From Pseudovirgaria hyperparasitica (Eukaryota; Ascomycota; Dothideomycetes; Acrospermales; Acrospermaceae): a stretch of 64,000 nucleotides of DNA. How positions within the stretch are numbered: position 1 is the stretch's first letter; every line of letters begins with the position of its first letter. The translations under genes and the position numbers were made by a program. The notes under the pieces are model-generated. The model was not told the origin of the DNA and did not search any database. It saw nothing but the letters and a program-made list of their open reading frames with translations. Positions 7,039-51,290 of the stretch are shown here, in pieces. The stretch covers positions 1 through 64,000 of the forward strand of contig NW_022985572.1 of assembly GCF_010093815.1 (NCBI RefSeq), read 5' to 3'.

Positions 7039-7532
7039 TATAGACTCTAGTACGAGTAGTATAAGAGATAGTATAACACGTAGAAAAGGTACCTATAATA
7101 CAATAGATAGCCTTAGATAACTATCTAAGGACAAGGTAGGCACCTATAGGGAGAGCTAATTATAGATACTTAGAATAGGTATTCTAAGTAGCCTACTAGG
7201 TAATTAGAAATAGAATATTAGTATTCTAAGTAATATACTAAACGCTTAGAATAAATATTCTAATTAGAGGACCTTAGTAGAACTATATAGAACCTTTAGA
7301 CCCGATCTCTAGAGATAGTTCTATAGTAATTAATTTAAACTTATACTAATATAATTACTACTTCACTCGCCTACTAGCTAGTTACTATTTATACCCTATT
7401 AATACTTACTATAAACCTACTTACACCCCTTAGAGCCTTCTAAGTACCTTTATCTTTAGAAAAGCCGGGATACTCTATATAACGGACTACTTTAGAGATA
7501 AGCCGCATCCTTAGTAGAAAAGGTTTATTATA
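7039..7532 (+). repeat. Left LTR of the 7.0-14.0 kb Gypsy element
   Basis: It aligns along its whole length with 13549-14041, from the shared start TATAGACTCTAG to the shared end GGTTTATTATA. The TA..TA ends are what RIP would make of a canonical TG..CA LTR. Most differences from the partner repeat are C/T or G/A. Confidence 0.85.
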
Positions 7533-13500: not shown

Positions 13501-13548
13501 AGAAGAGGTATTATATAATAAATTACTAGCTATAATTACTAAAGAATA

Positions 13549-14041
13549 TATAGACTCTAGTATAAGTAGTATAAGAGATAGTATAACCCGTAGAAGGGGT
13601 GTCTATAATACTATAGGTAGCCTTAGGTAACGGCCTAAGGCTAAGATAGATAGCTATAGAGAGAGCTAATCATAGATACTTAGAATAGATATTCTAAGTA
13701 ATATACTAAGTAATTAGAAATAGAATATTAGTATTCTAAGTAACGTACTAGACGCTTAGAATAAGTATTCTAAGTAAAGGACCTTAGTAGAACTATATAG
13801 ACCCTTCGAACCTAACCTCTAGAGATAGTTCTATAGTAATTAATTTAAACTTATACTAATATAATTACTACTTTACTCGCTAACTAGCTAGTTACTATTT
13901 ATACCCTATTAATACTTATTATAAACCTACTTATACTCTTCTAAGCTCTCTAAGTACCTTTATCTTTAGAAAAGCTAGAATACTCTATATAACGGACTAC
14001 TTTAGGGATAAGCTACGTCCTTACTAGAAAGGTTTATTATA
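13549..14041 (+). repeat. Right LTR of the 7.0-14.0 kb Gypsy element
   Basis: This is the direct-repeat partner of 7039-7532, with nearly equal length (493 against 494). It lies about 770 bp downstream of the chromodomain trace. Sequence beyond 14041 differs from the sequence that follows the left copy, which fixes the right boundary. Confidence 0.85.
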
Positions 14042-15840
14042 ATATATACCTTAATAGCTATACCTTAGAAGAGTATTCTATAGTATACTATTCTTAATTA
14101 TTAATCTTTATAGAAATAAATAATACTAACTAGTTATAGTATTATATACTCTATTAGAACTTCTCTATTATATAGTTCTAAATAGTAGTACTATTCTAGA
14201 TCTATTATATCTATAAGAGAAGCTAGTATAAGATAGAGGGATATTTAGATAGTACTAGAATCTATACTTTACTATTACTATAGTAAGGTATCTAAATCTC
14301 TCTATTTACTCTTATTACTAGAATCTCTTTATACTAGAAGAAGATATTATAGAATCTATATAATATACTTAGATAGTAGAGAATATACTAAAAGTTACTT
14401 ATAATAGGGTAGGTAATATAGGCGTATAGAGTAGCTAGCCTAGATTTATAGTAGTAGATATCTATTATATAGTATAGTACTCGATTATTTACTACTTTAC
14501 GACGCTAATATATAGATATTTAGTATATCTAGAATTAATATTATAGTATCTACTAGAGAGGGTCTAAGAAAGACTTCTAATTATAATATAACTATTAGTA
14601 TAGAGTATAGAGTATATATTACTAAGATAGTAACTCTAGTCTTATAATATACTCTATCTAAGAATAACTTTATAGTATTTACTAGAGAGTATCTAAGGAA
14701 GAGTTCTAGTTATAATATAACTACTAGTAAGAGATAGATAGTATCTATTATTAAGACGGCGATTTCTATATTATAATAATTTAACTCTCTCTATATAAAT
14801 AACTTTATAATATCTACTATAGAAGGTCTAGAGAGAAGTCTTCTTCTATAACTAAAGGTAGCTATTATAGAGTAAGTATTAGTTCTAACTATAGTATAAA
14901 AGAAGTTCTAAATATATTATCTAGTAGATATTTATCTATTATAATACTTACTAATCTATCTATAGAACTATCTATTATCTAGAACTATTATAGATTAAAT
15001 TAAATTAGCTTTTAAATATATTAAGGTCTAGCTAGCTATATACTAAAGAGAGTACGCTATAGTATATATATAAGACTATTAGTATAGTATAGGGTTATTT
15101 AGAGAGTATTTAGATTACTTATAATATAGTAGAATAATAATTAGAAGGTATTATAGAGTTAGTAATAATATTAGTAGCTCTAGCTCTTAAGATATAACTA
15201 TTATAGAGAATAGGGTGTAAAGGGGATAATAGTTTAATATTATAGAGGACTAGAAAGAAGGAGTTAGTATATATCTAGCTATAAAGAAACTACTTAGAAG
15301 AATATATATAGAAATTAGTATAGAGTATTCTAATCTATTATAGAACTAGTACTACTAAGAGAGACTAGTAGAGAGAGTAATATATATTACTACTACTATT
15401 ATATATTTTAAATCTTTAGACTCTTTTTCTTTATTTATAGTAGTATAATAATATATTATAGAGAGAGAATAGAAGAAAGAATAGAAGAGAGAATAGAAGA
15501 GAGAATAGAAGAGAGAATAGAAGAGAAAAAGATAATAATAATAAGTCTTAGATATACTAGAAAATTAATAGTCCACGCCGCTAAGAGCTATAGATTTTTT
15601 ACCTACTACTAAACGCGATACTAGAGGCTTATAACTAGAACTTATCTATAATACCGCGTCTATAAGTTATAGAAAGTATATAGAATTACTTAGTATAGCT
15701 AGAAGTATAATTTATTAGAATAGATTTTTAATTAAGATTATAGTTAATTTATTATATTATAAAAAGTGGTTTTTTAGTCGTGGTTTTAGTGAGGGCGCTA
15801 GCGGGCGCTAGATAAAACGTTATATCTTTTTATGATTCTA
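14042..15840. repeat. RIP-mutated AT-rich block, right part, with degenerate tandem repeats
   Basis: Base composition matches the left part of the block. Three degenerate copies of a 130-145-bp unit start near 14542, 14671 and 14816; each begins with a TATAGTATCTACTAGAGAG-like string followed by a TCTAAGGAAGA-like string. A 12-bp array (unit AGAGAATAGAAG, about five copies) lies at about 15465-15526. I see no open frame and cannot name the parent element. The block ends sharply near 15840, about 100 bp from the stop codon of the next gene. Confidence 0.75.
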
Positions 15841-15944
15841 TAGGAACAGATAGACTTAGTAGACACGTTAATCAATTTTACCACGTCTAATTTACCAAAG
15901 TTCCCACACTCGACACGTCGTTCCTGCTTACCCCTACTCAGTCT

Positions 15945-18643: not shown

Positions 18644-21600
18644 ATGGCATGCTTTGCTTACTTTCTTTAGATTGACGGAGCGCAATAGTAATACAATGTA
18701 TACTTCGTTCTGATATTGCAACCGCCCGAGATCTATATTATAATAGCGTTTGATTGTAGCTGAAAATGAAAGCTACAATTAGGCATAAGACTCAATAATA
18801 CAAACATGTTTTCGAGCCATCCCTATCATTCCAATCCCTGTGTTCCTAGAACTTCTTTATGTATGTGGATATCCAGCGGACGGGCACGATTTCATGATAT
18901 TGTTTTGCTAGCACAATCATATGTGTTTCGCCTAGAAGCAAATGAAACACAAGCTCCGATTTAATAACAAAGTAAGTACATGCGTCCCCTAGACCTCATG
19001 CGCTACCTTCAGCCTTATTTTAGATAGTAACATGTTTACTACCCACTCGTACGTGGGAGGGCTACCCGGCTTATCTAAGTTACCTCTAATGCTACCGGGT
19101 ACAGCCTTGTAAGCTTAAGAATGCATGCCCGGTAAGATCTACTTGGATTTTTATATAGTTTTCCTCCGTGACTCCTCCTCTACTTTTGTTCTTCTTTAAA
19201 TGAAATTTACGCTCTAAGAACTTATAATAGCTTCCCTATCTAGTGGCGGACACCCTTGTTAAGAAGTATATTCACCCTAAATCAAGAAGGGAAGGGTGTA
19301 TATTACGTTGGCTACTTCGCTCTAGTACCTAGATAGATAGAAAGGAGACTAAAAATGCGGATAATAACTTATCTATACCTTGATAATAATCTGTTTTACG
19401 TTAAAGTAGTAATGAAGATTAGTAACAGGTATATATACTATCCTTCCTTTGCTATTATTCCTTCGTTTATCTTTGCTACTTAAGGAATTAATGCTAGTAG
19501 CTCTATACTATAGGAGGCATTCCATCGCTAATTCCGCGACCTGATTCTTTAGTAACTTTTGTACCCTTAGCCTTCTTCCACTAGCTCTACCGTATATATA
19601 TAAAGAGATAGTAATGTTAACGCTGGTAGCTTAGCTTATACGTAAAGTAATATGAGCTCGTAGTCTATTGCATGCTCTATCTACCGCGATATAGGACTTT
19701 CAATAATAATCTACAGCACTAAAGGCCTCTACTACTAGCCACTACGGTATTAATAAGAACGAGGTCGTTGTATAGCGGATCGATGGAGCCCAAATGTAAC
19801 GCTAACAATACCTGTACCTTAATAGTAACGTAGATAGTGTGATCACGTAAGACTCGTTCGTACCTACATATGTAGACTAATGTATGTATCTTCTTAACAA
19901 AAGCCTAACATACCTTTAGATGCTACTATCTTCTCCGTAGATAAGTGGTATTGCGTTCTTATCGAAGGATTACATAAGAAGTCATCCATGCTCAGGTACT
20001 GATTCGTCATTATGCTTCGCATGTGGTAGAGTTTATGTCTACCATCGGCTTTGGGTTCTTCCCGTCGATCCTTAATCGAGAGATTTCAGCTCATTCTCTT
20101 AAAAACTACCTCTTCTGTATCTTCATTCCAATTCTTGCATATCTTTCGCCTAGATGTTACATCTCTCGTTATATTGCTCCGCTAACTCATTCTGTTTTCT
20201 TTACAGAGATAGACACTAGATGGATAAGTCCTTGTAGATTTTCTATAGCACTGTCTTAGATCGTGTTACCCAAGGCTTAAATCATAAGCATTGTACGTTC
20301 CTCTTTCGCACCTGAGATCTAGGGTACATTCTCCAAAGTATCGGATCGTAAATTTTTCTCTGGGCGATTTCGTGCCGTTATGTTATGCTTTAGGTAGTAG
20401 CGCTCGATGTCATCGTGCGCAAAGACTAGGAGTCGCGTTTTCTTGTAATGAGAAGAATAATTTTCATGGGCGAAGTATGATCATGTCGAAAGGTTCAGCT
20501 GGAGCGGTTAGTACTAAGTACTAATGTACGTTGTAACGTTAAGAGGATCCAAATTATTAACAACGAAATGAAAAGATAGTACTCCGTTAGATGAGGGAGG
20601 CCTAGTCGCGAGGAGAGGAGCGGGAGACAACTTTGATGCTAGTATCATGCAGTGTGCTTTACTAGAGGCGAATTTCTTGTCCTAGACTATGGTGGGTCAT
20701 ATAGGGGTCTACTGGCTGGCTAGCTTTGAGTTTGGTAACTCTACACATGATTACTATCGAAGTTCGCGTAGGTTGTACCTAAGCTGGTACTAATCCAATC
20801 ATTGGTGATTTCAGAAGAGCCTTGCATAAGGGGCTGTCATTGGACAAACGTCTATAGATTGGAAAGTATTTATCATGAGGACTATTGAACGTCTCCGGGG
20901 CCAGTCCCGGGGGTAGCCATCTTCTCGCGATTGGCGGACGATAGCAAGGGCCAGAGGTCAAGGCTTTATTGGCCGTAGACTCTTTAGTCTAACAATATCG
21001 TACTGAAAGGGCCAGTTGAGAATCAACTGACGTAGTTACGTAGTTAACCTTTATGTCTAATTGTTCTGTGGTTATCTCTCCATTAGTAGACTAATAAGTA
21101 CATCTATCGTCGTGTTCTATACGAGGATTTGCAGTTCGGCCCCTACTAAATGGGCTATGACAGGATCTAAAAACCTTTTACTGAATTCGCTGCTATGTAG
21201 AAGAATAGAACATGAAGTACTAGCACGACCCTGCCCGCTCATTAATCCGAGTGGTGCATGTATGCATGCCAAAGTCCGATCTACAACCTCCCCTCTTCTC
21301 CGATCAAGCTCGCAATGCGTACAGTTTAGGCTGGGACTGGAACCTTGCCATGTATTTACTAGGGACTGTTGTTGTTGACCTGTGAGATAATTCGCAATAT
21401 CTGCACATATATGCTCTTAGGTTCCAGGTCCTTGCTATTGATATACATTACTCAAGATAAGGGAATGTAGCACAGTACGGAGATTTTACGATGCCACTTA
21501 TGAGTGGATTTCCCGCTACTGCGATTTTGTTTGTCAAGCTACATTGTGTTTGTGAGTAACGAGGGATAGTGTCTCTCTATTCGTCCAACTGCATAATTAG

Positions 21601-34080: not shown

Positions 34081-37000
34081 TCAAACGGCATTTATTTTCT
34101 CGACAATTGTTTTTAATCGTACTGGAGACTGTGACCAGTCATATTTCTCGAGCTCACCGTTCTGGGTGATGCAGTAGAGAGCCTCAGCGGCTGCAACCCG
34201 AATCTAGGAACATTATCAGCGAGTCTATTAGGCCTTATAATGCAAGGCACGTACCTTAGGAAACGGATGGACAAGCATGCTCTTTATCTTAATCAGCACT
34301 AATGCCCTAATACTCTCAACCTCTGCAAGCCCACGATACAGCTCCAAAGCCAAACACAGCTTATGCATTTGCGTCGACTTGAAGTGACTCTTCTGTACCA
34401 AGCTAAGTAGCGTACGCCACTTAAACTCCGTACTGGCAAGGCGACACATGACACGCATGTCGAACAAGAATGTCAGACTCTCCATCAGCGGGAGAAGAAC
34501 TCTGTCGTTACTCACATGCTGCTGATAGACGTCCACTAGAGAGTCACCGAATTCGAGCAATGCGAACGTGTCTGGACTGGACGTGCTGGATGCGGGGAAG
34601 TCGGTCAGAGTGGCGATGAGCGCCATGCGGGATGCCTGCACGACAGACTCGGACGCCATGCCCATTGCTGAGACATAGCCTTCGAGGATGGCGGATTTGA
34701 AACGTTTCGAGACGTTAGATTGCAGGAGAGCAAGAAATGCTTTGAAGTATGCATACGAGGACACGCCTTCGGTGGTGACGATCTGGGAGCTGGGGTTCTT
34801 AGTAAGGAGTTCATGCTGTGCAAAAAGGAAGGGCCGTACATATATGAGGACCCGCCGTCGACCAGAGCGAGAGCCTGAGCTGCACGCATGCGGATCCTGT
34901 CCAATTTTTCGAGAGATAGACGGACGACGGAGTCGTAGAGCGGCGAGGAGGCGGGTGAGTCGAGGAATGTACATCGCCAGGCCGATTCTGTGGCGCAGAG
35001 AGCTTCGAGACGGACGAGAGAACCGACGTCGCCGCGCTCGTTGATCGTGTAGTCATTGAGAGCGGTATGTAGGGCTTGAGCTATCTTAGAGATCTGATCT
35101 TCGCGGTCTTTGCTTGTCGAGGATGCTACGTCTGCGAAGGTGAGCTGGAGACTTTTGAGGGCGGTGCAGCGGGCTTCGATGTCGACTTTTGGGGTGCATC
35201 GCTCGGTGAGGACTTGAATGATTTGTTGCGGGAGATCTGATGTGGTTGAGAGGTTGTCTGTGGATAGGACGTGGTATGCTGAGCCGAGGGCTAATGTATA
35301 TCCAGCACCTTTTGCACCGGAATAGGATGCGCCTTGCTTGAGAACTGTTAGCCATTCCGTGGTGACTCGAGCCAGGTCGCTGATAGTTGCAAGTAGAACG
35401 TTCTCGACTGCGCTTGGAGCCATCCCCAGGATGTCTTTCTCGTCTCGTCGAAGGCACCAGTTCAGATGGCGCTGGAGGGTGCGGGCATCTAAGTCTAGGT
35501 TTGGCTGCTGTCCATAGATGACGTGTGAGAACTTCGCCATGGAGGAAATTAAAGAGCAAACGGCAAAAGCGGTAAGCTCAGGACGGGAGATGGTCGAGCT
35601 GAAGTCTTTCTCTTGCAGCTTCAGGCTACTGAGAATGTCCCAAGGCGACAATCGGCGGAGATCATCCATACCTCTTTGCAGTGCTTGAACACCCTTCACC
35701 ACTGCGACGCACCCTTCGTGTTGCATGACACACCTGTCAATTATTGCGGACAGAGTCATCATAGTACCGTGACGCCCTTCCACATCTCTTTTTGGCAGTA
35801 CCAACAGCTGCCACTTGACCTGTTGGAACATCGATGCTACCGTCTCAATATCCATGAATGAGCTCAAAGAAGCAATTCCAACCGAACTTGAAATACGAGA
35901 AGATGCATCAACAGATCCGACCCCACGCCACCCCAAGAAATTATCATAAAGTCCCTGCCAATAAAGAACATCAAGTCTGGCTGCTTGTATGGCTACAGTA
36001 CGCAAAGCACGGTCGCGGAGGCCAACAGCATGAAAGTCAACGATCTGGACTAATGGTATGCCCTGGATGATGGTGTCTGGATGTCGACCGACCAATTCTT
36101 GCAGCGCAGCAGAGGATCCTCGCCGGATGTTGCCAGCAGGGTCGAGGCATGCTGCGACTAGAAGCTCGATAGCAAGGAACTGGACGACGGATATGTTGCC
36201 GTGTTTCCTTATATCGGCCGCCTTGATGTCGACTGTGCGCACACCAGATAAGTCTGAAGCTGCATATCTCCGTGACATTGCCCAGATTCCAAAGCACGCA
36301 GCGTCTCTTACATTCGTCCCAATCGAGCTTCCGGTCGACGACCGTTGCTCGAAATTTAGCGCCAGGAGTAGAGCATTGAGGATATCCGCAAGCTGGGAGG
36401 TTGGCGGTGCTTTCCGATAGAGCAAATGTGCAAGCGTCAAGGTGAGGCCATGCCATCTCAGGGGGTTGACTGCGCTGAGGTCCCTTTCTGAATCATGCCA
36501 AAGCACGTCCTCTGCAAGAGATCCAATGACTGCCTCAACGACCTCCTCGGCAAGTACAGGGTCGAGTTTTAGGGTGATTGTACTCAGAGCTTTACTTGCT
36601 GCTAGCCTCACCGGAGTATCTCCATCAGCCAGAGCTTGGAGCAGGTGATCGATAACCTCTTCCAGGATCGCAGAGAGGTCGATACCTGGAAGCATAGCCT
36701 CGTTCTGCACCCCATGAACGACGATTGTGCGAAAACACTTGATGAGTAGCTTTCTGGCTACAGCAGATGCTCGGACAGCGGACAGATGAGGCGAATCGAG
36801 GACATTCTGGCTGGTCTGGTATAGCGCGGGAATGAACGTTCCAATTTCTTCGGCAGTACCAGAAGAGAGCAGTTGGCTAAAGAATGTGAGTACGCCAAGG
36901 TAGCCATGAATCGCTGAGACTTCGCTCGATGAATGTGTGAAGAAATCAAGCGACCACTGGATCATCGAGCGCAGGAGCCCGATCTTACGCATATCTGGTC

Positions 37001-37779
37001 TCAAGATGAGTCGAACGAGAAGTCTGCTTGCCGCATTACGCTCTTTTGTCGCAGAGCTCATATACTTGATACATAATGGGAGAACACGGAGAGGTACACT
37101 AGAGAGTGTTTGCGGCAGTTTTGGATGATCTAGTGATGTTTTCTCTTGAGTAATGGCAGTGGAGGAGATAGTCGCCAAGTCGAATGGAGCCAGCATCAAA
37201 TGAGACAGCCAAAGCAGAAGAACATACCGCTCTTGCCACGCGGATGCAGTCGTTATGTCTGAAGCTCGATCGTCATCGTGGCTCAAAATTTCGAGCTGCG
37301 ATAGAATGGTTTCTAAATATCGTGGTTCGTTGTTCAGAAAACCAACAATGACTTTCTGGCCGCGTACTTTACAGAACACATCGATGATCAGTCCTATGGC
37401 ACTGGAAAGCTGCACCTGTTGAGAGACTTGCTTATGTCTAGGGCTGTACTGTAGATACAGCAGGTATGCTTCGACCAATGGCGGAATAAGATACTTCAGG
37501 TGCGAGTCTAGTAATTGGGGGTCTTCCTGGAATGGGCTTATCTACCAGGGATCAGCAGTAGTCCGTATGAAATAGTGTCTCGAGCATTCCATTCGTGAGT
37601 CATACTAAAGCAAGGACTCGGTTCAAGTCTCGTTCCTTGATGCTATGGTGGACCGAGATTGTATGCGAGTTTGATTGGGACTTCTTCCAAAGACAGCGGC
37701 CCAAGAGAGTCCTCAGCTCAAGAAGATAAGAGCCAGAAGCCCGTTGAAGTTCGATGTCTTCCTCATGGGTAGACACCAT
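34081..37779 (-). CDS. Tubulin-folding cofactor D (TBCD/Cin1), 1178 aa, four exons
   Basis: Cofactor D binds beta-tubulin and assembles the tubulin heterodimer with cofactors C and E and Arl2. Exons: 37779-37606, 37541-34863, 34815-34255, 34203-34081. The introns are 64, 47 (34862-34816) and 51 nt and the sum of 3537 nt is in frame. The N-terminal part reads EDPQLLDSHLKYLIPPLVEAYLLYLQY, and the body is helical HEAT/ARM-like throughout, with ERYVLLLWLSHLMLAPFDL as a family block. The C-terminal region IVTTEGVSSYAYFKAFLALL ... FKSAILEGYVSAMG fits the TBCD C-terminal domain. The third intron has a weak donor (GTCGAC), so that junction is the least certain. The start is the ATG at 37779, because the frame upstream has only TTG. 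A Mutator-like element begins 144 bp upstream of this ATG. Confidence 0.9.
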
Positions 37780-37914
37780 ACTCAATCAGCCGGACACTTA
37801 CCACATGAGAGGTTGAGTGATGTATCTTGGGTTGTTCAATATTGTACCGTAGGAGTAAGGCTGTATCCGCGCCGTGCCAAGCATTTGTAGAGATCGGATC
37901 CTACCATCCAATCC

Positions 37915-37922
37915 CGCTACGC
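37915..37922. repeat. Target-site duplication of the Mutator-like element, left copy
   Basis: CGCTACGC lies directly before the first base of the left terminal inverted repeat (GAGGGTTCC). The same eight bases follow the right inverted repeat at 49618-49625. Confidence 0.85.
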
Positions 37923-38134
37923 GAGGGTTCCTCAAGCGTCCAGCGTATAAATGCGTATTTATACGTACAAAATGTAACGTCTGCGTACGGAATGTAACGT
38001 ACAGACTAAGCAGGTCAGCAGATCCAGACGCTCTATATGATTTTATATGGGGCGTTCGGATCGAGGGATACCCGAGACTTACCGAGTACATACCACACTT
38101 ATTTGTCTTTATTTATCTTCATTATCTTCATTTA
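37923..38134 (+). repeat. MULE left terminal inverted repeat
   Basis: It pairs with 49405-49617 in reverse complement. Conserved blocks include AGCGTATAAATGCG, CTGCGTACGGAATGTA, AGATCCAGACGCTCTATA and GGATCGAGGGATACCCGAGA. Differences are mainly C/T and G/A. The inner edge is approximate. Confidence 0.85.
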
Positions 38135-40148
38135 TTTACTTTCTTGACGCGTCGTGACTCCTTAATTCGTCTATACTATTATTATCCGTGGTATTAAGTA
38201 TTGAGTCTATCTACTCGTATAATTCATTACCGCTAGTAATTATAACGTTATTGTTAACGTCATAGTTGCTATTACTATTATAAGTGTTCTTAGCGCCAAC
38301 CTTATTACTATTACCTTCGCCTAGGTCTTACATTCTATTCTAAAATTAGTATAATTCTAGGTTATAGTTAAATACCGGGGGAGGTAGATTATCGATAAGA
38401 ATATCCTAAGTAGTCTTATTCGAGAGATCGCCGTCTACTTTAGAAAGTTATACACGAGTAACTACTTTAGAGCCTTTATTAATAATATAATTAGCCGCCT
38501 TAGTATACTTAATCTATGGTATTAAGTCGTTAACCTTAGAATTACTATCACTAGATATAAGGGTACTAGCGCCCTAAACCTTATCTAATATTCTATTAAA
38601 CTTATCCTTATTAAGGAGATCTCGAGTAGATACCTAAGTAAGTTTACCTATAGCTATAGATAGACTATTTATCTAGTCTAGTCTTATTCTATTACTCTAA
38701 TTAGGCTTAAACTAACGCGAATCTTTAAGTAGATTATACTAGATAGCCCTTAGTTTATTAATTATCTTACGTACTTAGAGTATATTGCGAGTTTCTCGTC
38801 GCGCTAAGCTCGTAGCCATCTCCTCGATATTACTATTCTTATCTCTTTAACTAAGTGTCTTATATACGTTATACCCGGCTTCTTTAAACTTAAGACTAAA
38901 GCCGTAGAGTACGTCTCCGTTAAGTATATCCCTAAATAGTATATAGCGGTACTAGAGGTAGCGATAGGGTAGGATATACCTTCTAAAAAAAAGGTAGTTA
39001 TAGTTAATAGAGTCTCTCTACGGCTTTAACGCTATACCGTTATTAACTTTACGTTAAGCGAATTAAATCTCTATACCTAGAAGCTTCTAAAATAGTAGAG
39101 GAAAGTCTTCTAAGCCTAGATATTAACGACTTAAGCTAAGTGTTTTAGTATAGAACTTAGTTACTCGTTTTCTACTCCTTATATCCTAACTTTTAACTTA
39201 CTAATCGAGCGCTAGAATAAGGCTAGTAATAGAGAACTTCGCCATTATCTTCTTTATCGCTAGGGTACGTGCTTTAATTATAGAGTGCTAGGCTTTAATA
39301 ATATTCGTGGTCGTAATCTAAAGTAATATAGGTAAGTATTACCGTGTAAATATCGCCTATAGATACTTCTTTAGCGTCTAATATACCTATATATACTTAG
39401 GTAAGTTAAATAGTAGCTTTTTTAAACGACGTTTACCTTCTACTCGTAGATTTAGGCCATTTTAAGTATCTTAAGGTCGTATATTAGTCGTTAATAGTAG
39501 TATAGAGTTATAAATAGATACTATAGATACCGTTAAGGATATTTTCCCCCACTTCGCGCTAGGCTTTTTAGAGCTAGAGAGTTGCCTTTTAGCGTTGGTA
39601 GACGTCTTAGTAGTAGAACGCATAGACGAATTTCTATTACTACTTTTTATAGCTTACTTAACTTCGAATTAACGCTCGGAATCTCTCTATAAATCTACGA
39701 GTCTCGCCCTTATCGCTACTACCCTCTCCTACTTCTTAATCGCTAGTATCTCTAAGGGATTTAGGTACTTTAGATCTCGTAGACACGCACGTATCGTAGT
39801 AATATTTATCGCCTTATTAAGCGACTTATTATAACCAATTTACGTATACTAATATATCGCCTATTTTAATAATCTCTATATATCTATATCCTTTACCTTT
39901 TCCTTAATTATATACTAAGAGTATACTATATAAAGGAACTATATTAGCTTTATTATACCCTCCTTAATACTAGGAAAAGCTTTATAAATTACGCGCTACT
40001 TAGCCGCCGAGTTATCCGTAAGGAAGTACCTTAGGTACTAGCTATTACCACGAGGTTAAATCTTACGATACTAACGCCTTAGCGTCTTTATAATAGTAGT
40101 AAGTATTCTACTCTTCTCTAACGTAGATAGTACGTATATACACGGGAG

Positions 40149-40153
40149 ATAAG
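40149..40153. repeat. Target-site duplication ATAAG of the nested LTR element, left copy
   Basis: ATAAG directly precedes the left LTR and is repeated directly after the right LTR (48186-48190). The exact match fixes the element ends. Confidence 0.85.
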
Positions 40154-40391
40154 TATAAAGAGTAAAGACGTGGGATAGCAGTCTAATAGTTCATAGAGAG
40201 ACATAGGAATGTATTTATGGAGTAATCTTACTCTTATACGAGGTTGATTCCTAACGAGCAGGAATCGGTTTATGCGGTCCACTTATATAGTAATATCGCT
40301 TAACTCAGCTAACTTAACCTAGCTCTAGCCACTACGTGGCTATATGGATTAGAATAGTCCATATAGATCCATTATAGTTCCCGTCCTAATA
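40154..40391 (-). repeat. LTR (3' LTR relative to the element's own strand)
   Basis: It has the same length (238 bp) as the partner at 47948-48185. By eye the two differ at about 18 sites, all C/T or G/A, the pattern expected of RIP rather than random decay. Confidence 0.85.
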
Positions 40392-40870
40392 ATATCCTTC
40401 TTCTTTTTATGCTTCGCCCCGAAGTACTTAAGTATATATAATCCTAAGTCTCTATAATCTATCGTGTACCTATATATCCGTGACTAAGTTTCTATAACGT
40501 TATAACCATCCTTAATATAGGTGAACTCGAGATTCTAGTTTACTTTTACTAGTTCATGTACGCGCTCATCCCTTGCTTCGTGGCTACTACCTAGGACATA
40601 TAATTACTACTTTAGTCGAGTATATATTTAGCTTCGCTCGCCTTTGATTTTATTCTCTAGTATATCCACCTCGCTCTTAAGGTAAGTCGTTAATTCATAT
40701 ACTATCTTCCCTAGTTTAGGTTTAGAAGGGTCTGTAGTGGTCTATTCTTATTAGAACCGGTCCTATATAACCCATTCGCGTTATTACGGTTACTAATTTA
40801 GCTTCGTTAATCGCCGTTAAGGGTGGACGAATATTCCTTTCTTAGATCTCCAGCTAACGTATATATATAG

Positions 40871-41287
40871 ATGTCTAATACTAGTCCTATCTCTAAGCCT
40901 ACCTCCTCCTCTCATAAGACTCGCTCTAAAGGTATCGCCTCCTCCCCGGCCACGCCGGCTAAGAAGCCTACCCATCGCGGTAGCATAAAGGCGCGCTCTA
41001 AGTCGGAGAAGAGAGTAGCCAGGGCTGCTGCTATTACTACCTCTATTACTAATGTGGCCACTAGTCGCTCTAATCCAGGTGATCCTAGTACTAAACTTAT
41101 GGATAAAGTGGTCGTAGGTTCTCCTCTCGCTCTAAAGCGCACGCCGCCTACTCTACCTCCTCTAGAGAATGAAGAAGATCTCGTCATAGACGATAATCGC
41201 GAGCCCTCGCGCTTACCCACGCCGCCGCCTCGCCGCTCTTCCTTCCGGTCTAACATGGACCGATTTAGTTACTCTAGGTCCTTTTAG
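40871..41287 (+). other. Open frame of 138 aa antisense to pol inside the nested Gypsy element
   Basis: An ATG at 40871 opens a Ser/Thr/Lys/Pro-rich frame (MSNTSPISKPTSSSHKTRSK; later TPPTLPPLENEEDLVIDD). It is disordered and basic and lies in the 3' region of the element, between the chromodomain trace and the 3' LTR, on the opposite strand to gag-pol. Further + strand coding-like sequence, including a heptad-like stretch, continues at about 41650-42190. Extra antisense frames in the 3' region are known in some plant Gypsy lineages. It is part of a fossil element; its role is unknown and it may be spurious. Confidence 0.45.
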
Positions 41288-42469
41288 GACCTTAATATTT
41301 ACTCTAAACCCTAGCCTACTAATAATGAGGCCTAGGTCGCTGAGGATACTAAACGTAGTCGCGGTTTACGCCATAGGAAAACGGCGAACTACGGTTCGAT
41401 ATACTATGAGTGTATTAAGGGCTATACGGCCGGCTCTAAATATCTCTTTCGCTCTAACTCTAGTATCAGCTACTACTCTACTAACCGCGACGGGCCTATA
41501 CGCCCTATCTTTACTCTACCTACCCGCTACCGCCGCTATACCGTGACTAGTAAGACTTGTCTATAGGTAAGTATAATAGGCTATCTTAATCTAGTGTAAT
41601 CTAAAGTAGTCCGCGCTAATATATTCTTAGGTTCCTATGCGTATATAAGATATATATAACGACCTTCGCGTCCGCGAGACCCTCGGGGGTCCTTATAGCC
41701 GCCTACCTACTATATAGAGGGAGTTTAGGGAGCGCTACAAGCTCTTCCTAGAGGTTATTAAAGTATAAGTTACGAGCACGTTAATTGTTTTTAACATCTA
41801 TTAATTTTTCTAGCCGCCGCGAGATCCCTAGCGCCTAGGCTACCTATTCTAGAGAGTCTATCCTAGCCATAGAGGCCGTAGAGAGGATTCGCTCTATCCC
41901 CCTCCGTCTATCTCGCGCTACTAACGGATCTCGTAAGAGGTCTACTATTTCTCCCTCTAAGTCGCCTCGTAAGAGGGTATATATTCCCTTCTAGATTATT
42001 CTAGATCGTGTTAGCTAACTTTAGACCTAGTCGCTACGCTCCGGCGCTTAAGGCTCTTCCCTCCAGGCTCTAACGGATCGGGTTATTACTCTAGAGGCTA
42101 AGGTCGTCGTCCTCCGCTACTATATCGTGCGGTTAGAGAGGACTATACTAGAGGTTAGGACGGATAATAAGATAGAGGAGTAGCTCTATGGTTCTAGCTC
42201 TATAGGTTTAGCTCTATGCCTAGCTCTATATATTCTAGATCTACTATAGGTGGTGCGCGCCGGCTCTGTTTGCCTAGCTTTTATCCATTTTAGTCCTTTT
42301 TAGACCGTTTAGATACCCGTCGGCTAGTTTCTAGCAATTTAATTCTTAACTTAACGATATTATATATGCGCTCGCTTAGCTTATAACTATCGGTTTCTAT
42401 ATTCTAATTTTCCTTAAGTTACCTAAGTGTGGGCACCGTATATAAATTAGTTTATCTCTATAAATTCCA

Positions 42470-42571
42470 TCAGAGCACCCGAACTAGTGGCCTAGTAGTT
42501 ATCGGTTCGGGTACTCTAACTTTTTATGTTTCGTGTTAAGAGTTTAATTCTATGGTAGGGTACCTTTTTTT
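42470..42571 (+). other. tRNA-like Pol III promoter motif pair (SINE-like fragment?)
   Basis: TGGCCTAGTAGT (42488-42499) resembles a tRNA A box, especially of the Ser/Leu type. GAGTTTAATTC (42540-42550) resembles a B box after C-to-T change, and a run of seven T follows at about 42564-42570, as a Pol III terminator would. A stem GAGCACCCGAAC / GTTCGGGTACTC (42472-42483 and 42504-42515) overlaps the A box. I cannot fold a full tRNA cloverleaf from it, so a tRNA-derived SINE head or chance are both possible. Confidence 0.3.
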
Positions 42572-43361
42572 AGGTTCTTGGTCCTATGTTTTTCTCGTGT
42601 ATAATAGTCCATATTAGTCCATTCTAGACTCTTCTATGTTATTCTATTATGGTATGTCGCGTCGTGTTCCTAAAATGGTTGTTTACGCTTTCTTCGCGTC
42701 TAGTAACTATACGACGCTTAAATTATGGGGCTGCCATATAGAGTTTTCCTAGTGCGCGTCTAGATTTCCTGGTTTGGCACTTCGTTCTCTATAGTATTCT
42801 TCTTCTTTTTACGACGACCGCGACGTCGCTATACTTATATTAATAATGCGCTATTCTGTATCTTTTGCTTATACGTAGCCATTATAGAACTTAAGATATA
42901 TACCGCTGGTTCCTAGGTGTCCTCGTCCTTAGTATAGTCCTTCTAACGGATTCTATATTTCTAAACACCGTCTTTATCGATCCCATGTTCGATAATATGG
43001 TCCACTTTAAACACGTCTAGTCTATCTTAGGGTATAATAGAGTGTAACTACACGTTAGTGCGGCCATACACGTTAGGTTAAAATCTTTCGAGTAGTGAGA
43101 CGTGGAACACGTTATAGATTCTTATATCGCTTCCTAAGTCGAGCTCGTAGGCTCTTATACTAATATAACGTTTGATTCGGAAGGGACCAGCCATTTTATA
43201 ATTAAGCTTCTTATTTACTCGCGACGTTCGTATATTACGGACGTTAAGAAGGACCTCGTCGCCCTCCTCGTACGTCTAATCCTTAGCTAACCTATTATAG
43301 TACTTTATATACGAGTCGTTTACTTATTAGATTATAGCGCGATAGTTACGTACGGTTTCGA

Positions 43362-44041
43362 NNNNNNNNNNNNNNNNNNNNNNNNNNNNNNNNNNNNNNN
43401 NNNNNNNNNNNNNNNNNNNNNNNNNNNNNNNNNNNNNNNNNNNNNNNNNNNNNNNNNNNNNNNNNNNNNNNNNNNNNNNNNNNNNNNNNNNNNNNNNNNN
43501 NNNNNNNNNNNNNNNNNNNNNNNNNNNNNNNNNNNNNNNNNNNNNNNNNNNNNNNNNNNNNNNNNNNNNNNNNNNNNNNNNNNNNNNNNNNNNNNNNNNN
43601 NNNNNNNNNNNNNNNNNNNNNNNNNNNNNNNNNNNNNNNNNNNNNNNNNNNNNNNNNNNNNNNNNNNNNNNNNNNNNNNNNNNNNNNNNNNNNNNNNNNN
43701 NNNNNNNNNNNNNNNNNNNNNNNNNNNNNNNNNNNNNNNNNNNNNNNNNNNNNNNNNNNNNNNNNNNNNNNNNNNNNNNNNNNNNNNNNNNNNNNNNNNN
43801 NNNNNNNNNNNNNNNNNNNNNNNNNNNNNNNNNNNNNNNNNNNNNNNNNNNNNNNNNNNNNNNNNNNNNNNNNNNNNNNNNNNNNNNNNNNNNNNNNNNN
43901 NNNNNNNNNNNNNNNNNNNNNNNNNNNNNNNNNNNNNNNNNNNNNNNNNNNNNNNNNNNNNNNNNNNNNNNNNNNNNNNNNNNNNNNNNNNNNNNNNNNN
44001 NNNNNNNNNNNNNNNNNNNNNNNNNNNNNNNNNNNNNNNNN
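43362..44041. other. Assembly gap (680 N)
   Basis: A run of N lies inside the nested Gypsy element, within its integrase region. The true length may differ from 680. Nothing can be said about the missing bases. Confidence 0.99.
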
Positions 44042-47000
44042 TAGTACTAACGAATTAAGCTTAGGGTACGTACATACCTAAAGTATCCTACTAGGTTAGC
44101 GTTATGGTATCGGCTAACTACGTTAAATCGCGCGTTGCCCGTCGGCATATAGCACTTTCTATCGTAGTAAAGTAAGCCGTCCACGAAGGTCTACTTATAG
44201 TCTACTTTAGTCTATAATAACCTATCTTGCTATATTTTATATAACTTTAAAACTATCGGGTCTGTCTTCTATAGATCCACGATTAACTAGGCGAGGTTAA
44301 TTGGACATTCACGCCGGGTATTATTGCCCTTCCCGACAGCGCTAATAAATGGTCTACTAGAGACTTCGGTACCGCGTCTTTGGTTACCGGCTTCGGTCTT
44401 AGAGATTTAATTACCGGCATTAATGTTAGTATCTCGCTAATCGCCTAATAACTTAAAATCTAACCTTATCCTTAAGAGTTGGGCCTATAGCTACTCTAGG
44501 ACCCTATGGCTACTATAATTCTAGGCGCCTTCTTTATAGTTAGGTCTTCTTAACATCCCATTAGCTAGATTTATACTTCTAGGTCGATGGTAGATTATAA
44601 AGTAAAAGTTCGCAAGCTACTTAGCCTATTAGACCTATTAACGGTTTAAAACCGTCGTGCTTATAAACCCCTTTAAGTTATAGTAATTAGTTAGTAACTC
44701 GACGTCATGCATAGCACCTTTAAGATAATATTACCACTATTTAAACGACTCTACTATTACTAGTAGCTCTTAGTCATAGATAGTGTATCTAGTCTTAACA
44801 TCGACCATTTTACGTGAGAAGAACGTAACTAGATACCATTAGACCTTTTTAGACTTAGTTAGTCTAGGCTAGGAGAGAATACCTAAGATTATAAATCCTA
44901 ACGCGTCGGTTTCGACGCGGATAGGTTTAGTTAGGTCGAAGTGCACTAGCAATAGAGCAGTTATAAATGCCTCTTTAATTTTCTCGAAGGAGGCCCTTTC
45001 GCCTTCTGACAATTCTATAGGCTACGATTTAATATTACGCTGTTTCTATCTACCGCGGACCGTAATAGACGAATCTATGGTAGTAGTGCGCGCGTTAAGC
45101 GGTACTACTAGCCGGGAGAAATGCTTAACGAATTTTCGGTAGTAATTAGCGAATCCGATAAAGACACGTATGTCTTAAACCGATTTTGGTTTAGGCTAGT
45201 CCACGATAGTAGCGACCCTATCCCTTTCCATAGTTATACCTTAATTAGTAATAACGAAGCTAAGAAAGTTAACGTGGTCCTAGTAGAACTCGTATTTAGA
45301 TAGCTTAATGTATAGCTTGTGTTTTTCTAGCCTATCTAGGACTACGCGTACGTGCTAGATATGTTCTTCTTCGTTATTAGAGAAGATAAGAATGTTATCG
45401 AGGTATATAATGCACGTCATGTCGAGTAGGCCTACCAGCGCGTTATTAATATACGCTTAGAAGGTTCCTAGCGCGTTAGTTAGTCTAAAAGAGACCACTA
45501 TATACTCGAAGTATCTATAACGGGTCCTAAACGCCGTTTTCTACTTATCGCCCTTCTTAATACATAGGCGGTAGTAGGCGTCGCGTAGATCGAGCTTAGT
45601 GAAGATCTTCGCGCGCCCTAGTCTATTAATAGACTCGGAGATAAGAGGTAGTAGGTAACGATTCTTTCGCGTGATGTTATTTAGACTATAGTAGTCGATA
45701 CATAGACGGAGACTCCTATCCTTCTTCTTTATAAAGAGAATTAGAGCTCCGGCTAGGGATATACTAGGCCTAATCCATCCTCGCGTAAGGTTCTTTTCGA
45801 TGTATTCTCGGAGGACCTATAGCTCGGGTTCTAATAGAGGGTAGATGGGTCCGTGTAGAGGTTATTAACTGTCTTCGAGGTTAATAGTAAGGTCGTTAGG
45901 TTAGTATTAAGGTAATTCGGACGAGTCGATCGCTAACACGATATATTAGTATATTTTATACTAATATAGTAGGTTTTCGTCTACTTTAATGCTAAGCTCT
46001 CTATTTTAAGTAAGTAAGAGGACGTAGATGGCGGAGATTACCTTTTCGTAGTCCTTCTAGAATTATTCGTCGTCGACTAGCTATACTAGGTTCTATTATA
46101 GTGGGTACATGCGCCAGCCAGCTGTTTTCTAGATGAAGTCTAGTTTCGGGTTATATTTTTCGAGCTACGGCATACCGAGGATCATGTTAAAGGGACTATC
46201 TACCACGATAAAGGTTGAGTAGTAGGGTTTCCACTTCCCCCCGCTATCCTAGATGCCGTATTTAATAGTATAGGTACCCTACGATTTAATAGGACTATCG
46301 ATACTATAGAAGGTGGCACCTATTAGTACTTAAATATCGACGTTAAGTTCTCGTGCTCGTTAAGTCGATATAACGTTAGTAGCTAAACCGCTATTAAGTA
46401 TTACGGTCTAATATTATCCACGAGGGACCTCGATAGGCCTAGCCTATAGTTTAATATACTAGTTGGCTAGTTATCCCTCTATTTTAGTTACGTCTATAAG
46501 TCGCGAGGGTTCCTCGTAGGTAGTTAGTTTTTTATATTATATACCGGGTAGTTAGGCGCGATGTGTCCTAGCTATTAGCACTTATAGCATATAACTAACT
46601 TAGTATCTATATTAGTATTCGGTGGTTTCCCTAAGCGGCACTTAGGTGCTATATGGCCTATTCTACTATAGGTGTAGTAGGTGACTTTAGGTCATTTATA
46701 TAAGTCGTTTCTCGCGTCTCGATATATTAACTAGTAGAAAGATCTACGGTACGGGCCTCGTCTTCTCGAGTTCGTAGAGTGGTAGCGCCCACGAGGTGTT
46801 CCGCGCGATCTATTACTAAACCGGTCCTCTTTAGACGATTTCGCATCGGATTAGATTAATAGGGATAGTCGTGCGCCTGTACGACGTTAGTTATTTATTA
46901 TACGCTAATGTCGTTCTGCGAGATTCGCGAGTGCCTAAAGGTCGGTAGAGATAGACGTTATAAAGTCGATGCGTTCCTTTACGCTCGGGTTAAGGGACCT

Positions 47001-47947
47001 TTTAAAGTCGTCGTATTATCGAACCATGCGATCTTCCTAGGCTTCTCTCTAAAGAGGTCGGAGGTATTTAAGGAGTTATAACGGGGATTATCTCTCTTAC
47101 TATTAAGTCTTAAAGATATGGCTCTAAGCCTATTCGCGTCGCTCGGCTCTATCGCCGAAGTATTAAAGAAGGAATTCGGTGAACGTGTCCTAGTTATGCG
47201 CATCCTTAGGGTATTTAATTCGATGTGCTATCCAACGTTCAGATAGCGTTAGGTCTAGGTAGTTCTATGCGAACCTAATCTTATTACTATCGTTCGTAAA
47301 TAGGTGGAAGAATCGGCTATACTAGTAAGCCTATTTATAAAAGCTCCTCCTAGTTTTACCGTCGAAGTAAGGTAGTTTCTTAGGCCGAGGTAACTAGGAT
47401 AGTAATAGACTTAGTTAGACTATTTCGGCTTAAGTTAGTCCATATTAGTGTAGGTTAGTTACTACTAGCACTAAAGCGTGTAGTACGGCTTCGAGTCTAG
47501 TAGTTCGTCCTTATACTTCGTCGAGTTCGCGAAGTTACTACTCGAGCTAAGCCTAATACTACCTCTCCGCGTGTAGCTTAGTATATACATTATCGTAAGG
47601 CGTGGTTAACGTTAGTCGGTTCTAATAAATTAATTCGTTAACGTTAATAGGGTCTAGTCTTATAGTAAGGATGGGTCTAGTATAGTATGAACTAGACCGC
47701 GATAGAGTATAATAGACTCCTTCCTTATTATCTAGGTAATCTTCTATAGTTATACGGAATGCCGTACTAGTTATTAGTACGATAGCCTATAGGGTATACT
47801 TATTAGTAGAGGTGGTCGTAGGGAGACTATTCTCTTTATTTAGATTTAGAGAGAGTCTCTCGTGTAAGGTAGTGCCACGGGTATTATAGCGCGTAGTAGG
47901 AGCTATCTCTATAAGCTACCGTCGTGCTATATAGAGAGGAATTAAAA

Positions 47948-48185
47948 TATAAAGAGTGAAGACGTGGGATAGTAGTCTAATAGTTTATAGAGAGATATAG
48001 GAATGTATTTATAGAGTAATCTTACTCTTATACGAGGTTGATTCCTAACGAGCAGGAATCGGTTTATACGGTCTACTTATATAGTAACATCGCTTAACTT
48101 AGCTGACTCAACCTAGCTCTAGCTACTACGTGGCTACATGGATTAGAATGGTCCATACAGGTCCATTATGGTTCCCGTCCTAACA
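47948..48185 (-). repeat. LTR (5' LTR relative to the element's own strand)
   Basis: It is the direct-repeat partner of 40154-40391. On the minus strand it begins TGTTAGGACGGG, so the canonical TG start is intact here. It is followed on the + strand by the duplicated ATAAG. Confidence 0.85.
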
Positions 48186-48190
48186 ATAAG
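48186..48190. repeat. Target-site duplication ATAAG, right copy
   Basis: It is identical to 40149-40153. The MULE transposase trace resumes immediately to the right. Confidence 0.85.
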
Positions 48191-49404
48191 AACCATAGAA
48201 GTCGCGAATTATCTAGGTATATAGATACTATCTTAACTTATTAGTTCTATAGGTGGCGTCTATTAAGGTAAGTTCGCCGTAGTTAATTAGCTACTCTAGT
48301 TGGTATTTCTAGACGAATACTAATAAAGATTTAATACTAGTTCGGTCATAGCGATAAGCGACAACTCTCTTATACCTCTAGTTACAATCTCTAAGCACCT
48401 CCTTAGCCTTATCTAGCTAACTATTAGCGCTTAGAGTATTACCCTAAAGTAGTCGATTAGGGCTATAGTTAACTACTTAAGCCTAGTTATAGATTTACCG
48501 TATAGTAAGGTAATTACCGCCAGCCTTACTAAGTTTAGAAACCTTACGTCCTATCTATAGATTCTTAAGACTCTAATAAAGATAAGCCTTTAATAGGCTT
48601 GGATTTAGCCTTATTATCTCGACTATACGATTACGTAAGCCATCGTTAAGCTTTAGACTATTAATACAATTAAGACTATAAGAGTACTTAGCTCTTCTTT
48701 AGTATTTTACTATTCTAATACTACTAGTAGTATTAAAAAACACTCGTATACTAGCTCTATACTACTTACTATTACGGATAGACTTTATTAAGGCCTTACG
48801 GAGGTTCTTAGGCGGACGAGGAGTATTAGTCTTACACTTAAGATAATAATTAAAGAAGGTAACCTTAATACCCTTAATAATCTCTATAGATTTCTTACTC
48901 TACACGTTACTAATGTATAGCTAGTAGGTATTCTACTACTATTATATTAATATAAGGCCATTAGATAGCGTGAATAACCTCTCTCTCTACTATATAATAC
49001 GCCCTAGGTTATTAAGGCTAGCGTGGTGATAGCGCTTAGTATAAGGTTACTTCTAGATAGCGATAGATAGTATAATATAAGTAATAGTAGACTACTAGCT
49101 TAGTGCCTAAGTTAAGGAAGTAGAGTTAGAAACGGTACTACCTAATTCGGTAGTATTCTAAGATTCTATAGCATTATGATCGCGAGATTCAATAGGTATA
49201 ATAACTTCTAGTAGCTATCTATTAGCTAATTCGGTAATAGTAACGTTACTAATAACAAGGTTAACGAGTTAAAGTATATTAGCTTTAACTTATAGAGTAG
49301 TATAAGATATCTTAACCTTAATATTAATAAGAATATACTAATATAGGTAGATTTACGGTATTAAAAGATAAGGAAATAGTAAGACGGTAATAAGGTATAA
49401 CACG

Positions 49405-49617
49405 AGGAATGAAGATAATAAAGATAAATAAGTATAGTATATGCTTGGTAAGTCTCGGGTATCCCTCGATCCGAATACCCTATATAAAATTATATAGAGC
49501 GTCTGGATCTACTAACCTGCTTAGTCTATATATTATATTCCGTACGCAGACGTTACATTCCGTCACATTCTGTACGCACAAATACGCATTTATACGCTGG
49601 ACGCTTGAGGAACCCTC
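49405..49617 (-). repeat. MULE right terminal inverted repeat
   Basis: It is the reverse complement of 37923-38134, ending in GGAACCCTC just before the duplicated CGCTACGC. The inner edge is approximate. Confidence 0.85.
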
Positions 49618-49625
49618 CGCTACGC
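49618..49625. repeat. Target-site duplication of the Mutator-like element, right copy
   Basis: CGCTACGC is identical to 37915-37922. The next base (G) allows no longer perfect duplication with these ends. Confidence 0.85.
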
Positions 49626-49712
49626 GCACCTGGCCCGGCCCATGACGCGTCTCACGCGCCCAACACAGAAGACTTTGCCATCATCGACATATGATCCAGC
49701 CAGGCATCCAGA
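49626..49712 (+). promoter_or_regulatory. POLD3 proximal promoter with MCB elements
   Basis: ACGCGT lies at 49645-49650 and ACGCG at 49654-49658, with another ACGCG overlapping the target duplication (49622-49626). ACGCGT is the MBF-bound cell-cycle box that drives DNA-replication genes at G1/S in fungi, which fits the downstream polymerase delta subunit. Only 87 bp of original promoter remain between the transposon footprint and the ATG. Confidence 0.5.
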
Positions 49713-51290
49713 ATGGCAGACAAATACAAAGAATATCTCACGGCAAATGTCCTCGATGAAGGGAGACCGGTAAACATGTCCATCTGACGCAGCATACTAA
49801 TTCTGACCCTAACAGATCACTTATCGCTTGCTCAGTAGAGCCCTAAGAGTTCATGTTGATCTGGCAAAACAGTAAGCTCCGAAGTCTTCGCAGATTGCCA
49901 AAGCTCACATCCGGTCTAGAATGCTGTACGACTTCTATCAGAAACAGAACGCAAAGAACTCAGGGTGTCTGCACGCTACCTACATAGTCTCGGGCACACG
50001 ACAAATGAGGGAGCGAAAACTCGCCAATGGAGTACAGTCGTATGATGGAGGACACAGATTCATGCAAAGTAGCCCTTCTATGAGGCCTGCGCCAAGAGAG
50101 GAAGAGAAAGAGGAGACGATATCCACAATTTCTGTTGTCACATTGGTCACTGAAGAACAGCTGGAAGGTACACCATTCATCTCAAGAACTAGCCGGATAC
50201 CGCTAACCTTTCATTCTCCCAGATGCAAAATCTAGCCTGGACAAAATTACAAGCTTACATGTCTACAGTCTACAGCCAGGATCCATTGAGGTAGGTACCC
50301 TGTGTTTGGTGACCATAATACAAATACTGACCTGTCCTCCAGAATGTTCATATCCTCTCGGTTTGTAACCAAGAAGTGTCAATGAAATATGCTCCGGACG
50401 ATCCTTTGAAGGCATACGAGATATATGGTACAATACATAATCCTGATGCCAGACGAAGGACTATGCGCAGGCAGCCTCCCGCACCTACCCCAGCACCAAG
50501 CAAAAACACTGTCAATACGCCAGCCAAATCCACGTCCAAGCATTCGCCCCCGGCCCCGTCGGATTCAAAAGCTACTGCTGCGCCAGAGCGACGAGGTAGT
50601 ACTGAGGATGGCAGCGCAGTTGTGAGACCGTCGCCGGTGTCAGATGTTTCGCTAAAGAAACCAGAAAACATAAAAAGTGCCTCCAATCGCGGTCAATCAG
50701 CTTTGTTTAAATCGTTTGCAAAGACTCAACCCAAAGTAGCAAAAGCGGCATCTCCAAGAAGATCACCAGCTCCTTCAGCTGAACAAACTGCCCAAGAGGA
50801 CGAAGCTATGGATGATGCAGACGCATCGGATGGAGAAAATGAGGCCGCGGCCATCAAAAAGAGAGAAGCAGCGCAGACAGAACGGAAAACTCGAGTTGAA
50901 AGAGAGGCACAACTACGGAAGATGATGGAAGAGGACGACGAAGAAGATGAGGACGAGCCTATGACCGATTCTCATGAGTCTGAGAAAGTAGAAAGCCAAG
51001 AGAGCGCAATTGACGCAGCGAAGCCAGCAGATTTAGATATCAAAGAGCAGACCGTACGTGTTGAGAATGGTCGGAGACGAGGTCGGAGAAGAGTCATGAG
51101 AAAACGGACCATCAAAGACGAAGACGGCTATCTTGTCACAAAGGAGGAGGCAATATGGGAGTCTTTCTCAGAAGACGAACCGGTGCCAAAGAAATCTAAA
51201 CCCACTCCCTCAACCTCCACTGCAAAGGAACCAAAGAAAGGTAATAAACCAGGACAGGGTGGCATCATGAGTTTCTTCAAGAAGGGATAA
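49713..51290 (+). CDS. DNA polymerase delta subunit 3 (POLD3/Cdc27-like), 458 aa, five exons
   Basis: This is a non-catalytic subunit that links polymerase delta to PCNA during lagging-strand synthesis. Exons: 49713-49769, 49816-49871, 49920-50167, 50223-50290, 50343-51290. The introns are 46, 48, 55 and 52 nt, all GT-AG, and the total of 1377 nt is in frame. The N-terminal winged-helix-like domain reads MADKYKEYLTANVLDEGRPV, then ITYRLLSRALRVHVDLAKQM and LYDFYQKQN, followed by the block LHVYSLQPG. The middle is a long charged, disordered, Ala/Ser/Lys-rich region with an acidic run (EEDDEEDEDEP). The C-terminus QGGIMSFFKKG is a PCNA-interacting (PIP) box of the form QxxIxxFF. The promoter has MCB elements. 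A transposon inserted about 95 bp upstream separates it from its former divergent neighbour TBCD. Confidence 0.92.

Follow-up and report, generated by a model that had tools for sequence, protein, structure and literature searches.

The 64,000-bp stretch of DNA analyzed here (the window) is part of a 329,896-bp contig, C24, in the 35.0-Mb genome of Pseudovirgaria hyperparasitica, a member of the Acrospermales in the Dothideomycetes. Within it, an insert of 11,695 bp (37923-49617) lies between the gene for tubulin-folding cofactor D (TBCD), on the minus strand, and that for DNA polymerase delta subunit 3 (POLD3, Cdc27), on the plus strand. The insert consists of an outer transposon of the Mutator-like element (MULE) type and a Ty3/gypsy-type long terminal repeat (LTR) retroelement nested in it, both carrying the signature of repeat-induced point mutation (RIP). 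The 95 bp retained by POLD3 hold three ACGCG sites, the G1/S motif known as the MluI cell-cycle box (MCB), which is a new finding. On the sequence evidence, we lean toward the reading that the insertion divided a compact promoter at a point between the working parts, and that each gene would be driven by its own remnant of that promoter and not by the transposon.

Features of the locus, in window coordinates:

34081-37779, minus strand: TBCD, multi-exon and intact, with its ATG at 37779 and its stop codon read by eye
37780-37914, no strand: TBCD-side remnant of the original intergenic region, 135 bp, with a CCAAT word at 37908-37912
37915-37922, plus strand: TBCD-side copy of the 8-bp target-site duplication CGCTACGC
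37923-38123, plus strand: left terminal inverted repeat, from alignment to the right repeat
37923-40153, plus strand: left part of the MULE-type element, taking in the left ATAAG copy
48191-49617, plus strand: right part of the MULE-type element, with a weak DDE remnant at 48192-48380
49408-49617, minus strand: right terminal inverted repeat, from alignment to the left repeat
49618-49625, plus strand: POLD3-side copy of the 8-bp target-site duplication CGCTACGC
49626-49712, no strand: POLD3-side remnant, 87 bp, with ACGCGT at 49645-49650 (-68) and ACGCGC at 49654-49659 (-59)
49713-51290, plus strand: POLD3, intact, 458 aa, with its ATG at 49713

The terminal inverted repeats of the insert are about 200 bp long (37923-38123 against 49617-49408) and match at 86% over 211 alignment columns. 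Their outermost 38 bases are identical and hold only 3 CA/TG sites. A further copy of the 8-mer CGCTACGC is present within the element, at 42032, and of 100 shuffled versions of the window 34 contained at least three matches to it; by itself it is no proof, and it is taken as the target-site duplication because both copies abut the terminal inverted repeats. A 10-bp duplication, CCGCTACGCG, which matches at both sides, was rejected, as other copies of the family also start with GAGGG and as, in a copy on contig C4, the shared sequence next to that end is exactly 8 bp long. The outer element alone measures about 3.66 kb (11,695 - 8,032 - 5). Its weak MULE-type RNase H-like (DDE) remnant (48192-48380, minus strand) ends where the retroelement starts, having been cut by it, and matched PF21056 at 8.8e-5 (22.9 bits, cut-off 27.2) and PF10551 at 0.18, both below the curated cut-offs. 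The left part of the element gave no match to a transposase domain, and a PF10551 profile search of the whole genome gave no match, with no MULE domain found in the genome. The label MULE rests mainly on the ends and the duplications, and at the level of these sequence features the insertion of a putative MULE with an 8-bp duplication is demonstrated.

Both neighboring genes are intact. The main exon of TBCD matches the Pfam families ARM_TBCD (3.3e-52) and ARM_TBCD_2nd (9.1e-33); the public model P0001 (1157 aa) agrees in its start residues and matches at 98% over 92% of that exon. Nine of ten aligned TBCD proteins begin within 1-2 residues of each other, the exception being the truncated model of a relative. 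A frameshift near the C-terminus, where the reading frames change, was considered and rejected, since the public model splices at that point. POLD3 matches Pfam CDC27 at 4.4e-93 and is identical to public model P0121 across all 458 aa, and its start is shared to within 1-2 residues by all 11 aligned proteins. Without the element and one copy of the duplication, the gap comes to 135 + 8 + 87 = 230 bp, and the element stands 143 bp (135 + 8) from the TBCD ATG and 95 bp (8 + 87) from that of POLD3.

Seven motif patterns were examined in this joined 230-bp gap, which was found to contain a single CCAAT word and three occurrences of ACGCG. The ACGCG sites all lie on the POLD3 side, at -91, -68 and -59, and the outermost (49622-49626, -91) is formed by the target duplication CGCTACGC and the next G. 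On the TBCD side, the duplication and the first G of the element leave an ACGCG at 37919-37923 (-145 from the TBCD ATG), and the CCAAT word is kept at about -130. MCB boxes are described as enriched upstream of G1-phase genes in all of the ascomycetes studied by Gasch et al. 2004 (PMC526180, cited in part). Three ACGCG sites within 95 bp are rare in this genome: they were found in 0 of 3600 overlapping background windows from the unmutated part of the contig and, at other loci (GC of at least 0.45; the loci partly overlap), in 5 of 1141 windows. Three within 230 bp occurred in 152 of 20000 Markov simulations.

Several points weigh against the favored reading of the locus. The ACGCG motif was picked after all seven patterns had been viewed, which makes the p-values post hoc, and it was therefore tested on further genes of DNA replication. 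In PCNA and three MCM genes (six MCM genes were found, of which three were examined), the 311 bp upstream of the anchor contain 2, 2, 3 and 3 ACGCG-type sites, against 178 of 3560 background windows of 300 bp with at least two. This result favors the MCB reading, but the check is small, and the start of PCNA is uncertain, its distance being taken from the second-codon region. Short upstream ATGs are present in both remnants, and similarity to MULE transposases falls below the Pfam cut-offs in both the window copy and the C4 copy.

The retroelement that interrupts the outer transposon comprises the following features:

40149-40153, plus strand: left copy of the 5-bp duplication ATAAG
40154-48185, minus strand: Ty3/gypsy-type LTR retroelement, 8,032 bp with the N gap counted, from its LTRs and Pfam domains
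40154-40391, plus strand: LTR, 238 bp, from comparison of the LTR pair
42871-43011, minus strand: chromodomain remnant (PF00385, 18 bits, below the Pfam cut-off of 25.1)
43081-43263, minus strand: Tf2-1-like SH3 domain remnant (PF24626, 54.5 bits, above cut-off)
43362-44041, no strand: assembly gap of 680 N inside the retroelement
44608-45006, minus strand: RNase H domain remnant (PF17919 and PF17917, above cut-off)
45253-45732, minus strand: reverse transcriptase domain remnant (PF00078, 6.8e-22, above cut-off)
47948-48185, plus strand: LTR, 238 bp, from comparison of the LTR pair
48186-48190, plus strand: right copy of the 5-bp duplication ATAAG

The C4 copy of the outer element has the retroelement site empty, with uninterrupted sequence and a single ATAAG, and the later insertion of a Ty3/gypsy retroelement into the MULE-type element is thereby established. 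In Ty3/gypsy elements of the chromovirus type an integrase precedes a C-terminal chromodomain; no integrase was found among the domains of this retroelement, and the N gap occupies the position expected for it from the domain order. The Pfam families listed for the retroelement did not include a Ty1/copia-type reverse transcriptase.

RIP raises TpA/ApT and lowers (CpA+TpG)/(ApC+GpT), and the index formulas used here are part of general knowledge. The composite RIP index runs from 0.88 to 2.02 in 500-bp windows wholly or mostly within the element and is negative in TBCD, in POLD3 and in the 135-bp (-0.36) and 87-bp (-1.98) remnants, so the signal ends at the boundaries of the element and no leakage of RIP into either remnant is visible by this index. 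The two LTRs differ at 18 positions, all of them transitions and 17 in CpA/TpG context. As a signature, RIP of both elements is clear, and the mutated body is probably silent chromatin that would end at or near the ends of the element. The end bases have been spared in the C4 copy too and not in a copy on contig C28; the sparing is therefore not special to this site. Elsewhere in the window, strong RIP-type composition was also seen at 1-15900 (GC 0.21-0.34) and at 19001-20000 (composite index about 1).

Much of this had been anticipated by the original prediction, made from the window sequence, of a nested, RIP-mutated MULE with an 8-bp duplication on each side between two intact genes. The nesting is borne out by the LTRs, the ATAAG duplication and the empty C4 site, the RIP by the raised composite index and by LTR differences that are transitions only, nearly all in CpA/TpG context, and the intactness of both genes by Pfam domains, public models and conserved starts. 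The copies of CGCTACGC are present at both ends of the element, and together with those ends they support the assignment to MULEs, the transposase remnant being weak. The predicted gap of about 230 bp agrees with that computed here, and the predicted distances of 144 bp (TBCD) and 95 bp (POLD3) are correct if the duplication is counted in each. The proposed length of 11.7 kb holds for the whole insert and not for the MULE-type part, which is about 3.66 kb. The prediction also raised the possibilities that the genes might borrow promoter from the element and that silencing could threaten them; both are conjectural, and for POLD3 the three ACGCG sites that it kept offer a concrete alternative to a borrowed promoter.

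In the sequence of events that we favor, a MULE-type transposon of about 3.66 kb entered the putative divergent TBCD/POLD3 promoter of about 230 bp in the lineage of P. hyperparasitica, duplicating 8 bp; a Ty3/gypsy retroelement entered the MULE afterwards, duplicating ATAAG; and RIP mutated both elements. The insertion was probably tolerated because the cut fell between working parts of the compact promoter, with POLD3 keeping three MCB boxes and TBCD keeping the CCAAT word and one duplicated ACGCG. That the two genes shared a promoter ancestrally, and that each piece suffices, we infer from the layout of the locus. A more far-reaching version seems improbable at present. It holds that the two genes once shared a single S-phase promoter, that the insertion made two self-sufficient promoters of it by duplicating an MCB box, the 8-bp duplication carrying the outermost ACGCG core so that each gene retained a box, and that the gene promoters act as natural barriers confining the 11.7-kb RIP-marked silent block to a few dozen bases from both essential-type genes.

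One or both genes might instead start from promoters borrowed from the terminal repeats of the element, as maize Mu elements drive outward transcription from theirs. The left repeat has a TATAAATA word at 37956-37963 (minus strand) that points at TBCD, 184 bp from its ATG, where other copies read CACAAATA; the difference is a RIP-type change, and RIP could have created the box. TATAWAWR words are common in the AT-rich element (15 on one strand and 18 on the other), however, so one near an end is unsurprising, and on the POLD3 side no such word was found in the outer 130 bp of the right repeat, the nearest being at 49481. POLD3, moreover, keeps its own ACGCG cluster, and the part of the Fusarium mimp study drawn on here gives a miniature inverted-repeat transposable element (MITE) in a shared promoter no promoter role (PMC3599309). 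Taken together, these points make borrowing rather unlikely. It is likewise unlikely, if hard to separate from the favored reading on sequence, that the insert is a neutral passenger between genes that never shared control DNA and always used less than 100-140 bp each. Such a history would fit the intact genes, the MCB boxes lying closer to POLD3 and the gap of 230 bp without the insert, but the duplication includes the outermost ACGCG, which indicates that the insertion struck the box cluster.

The original prediction had named two ways in which the locus could mislead, one being that unrelated flanks had been joined over the N gap. A 680-base gap within a repeat does invite that suspicion, but independent duplications of 8 bp and 5 bp both match across it, and in an artefact these and both repeat pairs would have to match by chance. 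The domain order of reverse transcriptase, RNase H, gap, SH3 domain and chromodomain is also that of one retroelement, and in 35 of the 38 other species compared TBCD and POLD3 are on contigs of the same length. Misassembly across the gap is thus very unlikely, to the point that we give it next to no weight. The other concern, that the genes would prove unlinked in relatives, is answered by the same comparison, which drew on the best 120 protein matches per gene and on the 39 species named in both lists, and took as linked those in which the longest contig was of identical length for TBCD and POLD3. Among these matches 36 of the 39 species were linked, P. hyperparasitica included, the exceptions being Phyllosticta capitalensis, Phyllosticta citriasiana and Ascochyta rabiei, for which the clusters may come from different assemblies. 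Gene tags are consecutive in Lojkania enalia, Kalmusia sp., Paraphaeosphaeria sporulosa, Epicoccum nigrum, Coniothyrium glycines and Didymella sp. In Curvularia kusanoi they are 29 apart on one contig of identical length, which speaks against direct neighborhood in that species, and the tags of many other species, P. hyperparasitica among them, are non-positional. Linkage of TBCD and POLD3 in relatives is well supported, and from this window we infer their head-to-head order and 230-bp spacing there. Scans with TBCD DNA of genome contigs and viral contigs, both non-fungal collections, yielded 37 and 22 pattern matches, none of them from a relative. Open-access literature, searched without the two gene names, turned up neither this locus nor a promoter shared by TBCD and POLD3.

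The element ends, GAGGG...CCCTC, recur in the genome. The 21-base end pattern GAGGGTTYCTCAAGCGTCCAG has 47 genome matches at up to 3 mismatches, against 0 for a reversed control pattern, and 15 pairs of ends, spaced by 330-734 bp, have the character of short relatives of the element. Eight of these are flanked by exact 8-bp duplications, three by exact 9-bp duplications and one by a 9-bp duplication with one mismatch, while three have none. Plasmid records gave no match to the left terminal repeat. The C4 copy runs from 380073 to 471262 and is flanked on both sides by the 8-bp duplication CTTACGAG, and its weak MULE-type match (0.014 and 0.052, under the curated cut-offs) spans the empty site of the retroelement. 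Its ends are separated by 91,190 bp, the parts read in between contain pieces of the element in collinear order, and nested insertions seem to have swelled an element of about 3.7 kb some 25-fold.

By crude open reading frame (ORF) calls, a gene start is the nearest feature in 10 of 12 other copies, four further copies having no call. A Pfam check of 20 flanking ORFs gave matches for 15 (3 under cut-off), of which 9 have their 5' side towards the element. A preference of the family for inserting at gene starts is a trend only. A 432-bp relative without an exact duplication (C1:691472-691903) has a TAN-domain (TEL1/ATM-like) gene on one side and a Nup192 gene on the other and faces the 5' sides of both, making it a second divergent promoter hit. 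Two short relatives bracket a single YL1 gene (C1:3314865-3318907), one 5' and one 3' of it. At the end of contig C41 (9777-10000 of the locus read there), a family end stands beside a tandem repeat that reaches the contig end.

The locus is a clean natural test of the smallest promoter with which two housekeeping genes can manage and of the point at which RIP-linked silencing ends; both genes are intact though 95 and 143 bp from a strongly RIP-marked block. If the ACGCG reading is true, the locus would show that a target-site duplication can lessen the harm of an insertion into a promoter by providing a second copy of a regulatory box. MULEs typically have terminal inverted repeats of more than 100 bp and duplications of 8-10 bp (PMC5225508, cited in part). 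Like MULEs and their short non-autonomous relatives, the family described here combines long terminal repeats, 8-9 bp duplications, short relatives reduced to their ends and a weak DDE remnant, although no domain reaches its curated cut-off. As in the LTR retrotransposons nested in maize and rice MULEs described in part of PMC3903597, an LTR element sits within the transposase region of a MULE; unlike those, it is RIP-mutated and lies within a compact fungal divergent promoter. POLD3, PCNA and three MCM genes, with their ACGCG sites some 60-310 bp upstream, recall the MCB-regulated G1/S genes of ascomycetes (PMC526180, in part), and the sites are known here as sequence only. A further parallel is given by the MITEs in promoters of Fusarium oxysporum genes, the shared SIX3/SIX5 promoter among them, as set out in part of PMC3599309, where a DNA transposon also lies in a bidirectional promoter and expression is possible without its help. 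There, however, a small mimp occupies a 1365-bp region shared by effector genes, whereas here an 11.7-kb insert occupies a 230-bp region between housekeeping genes.

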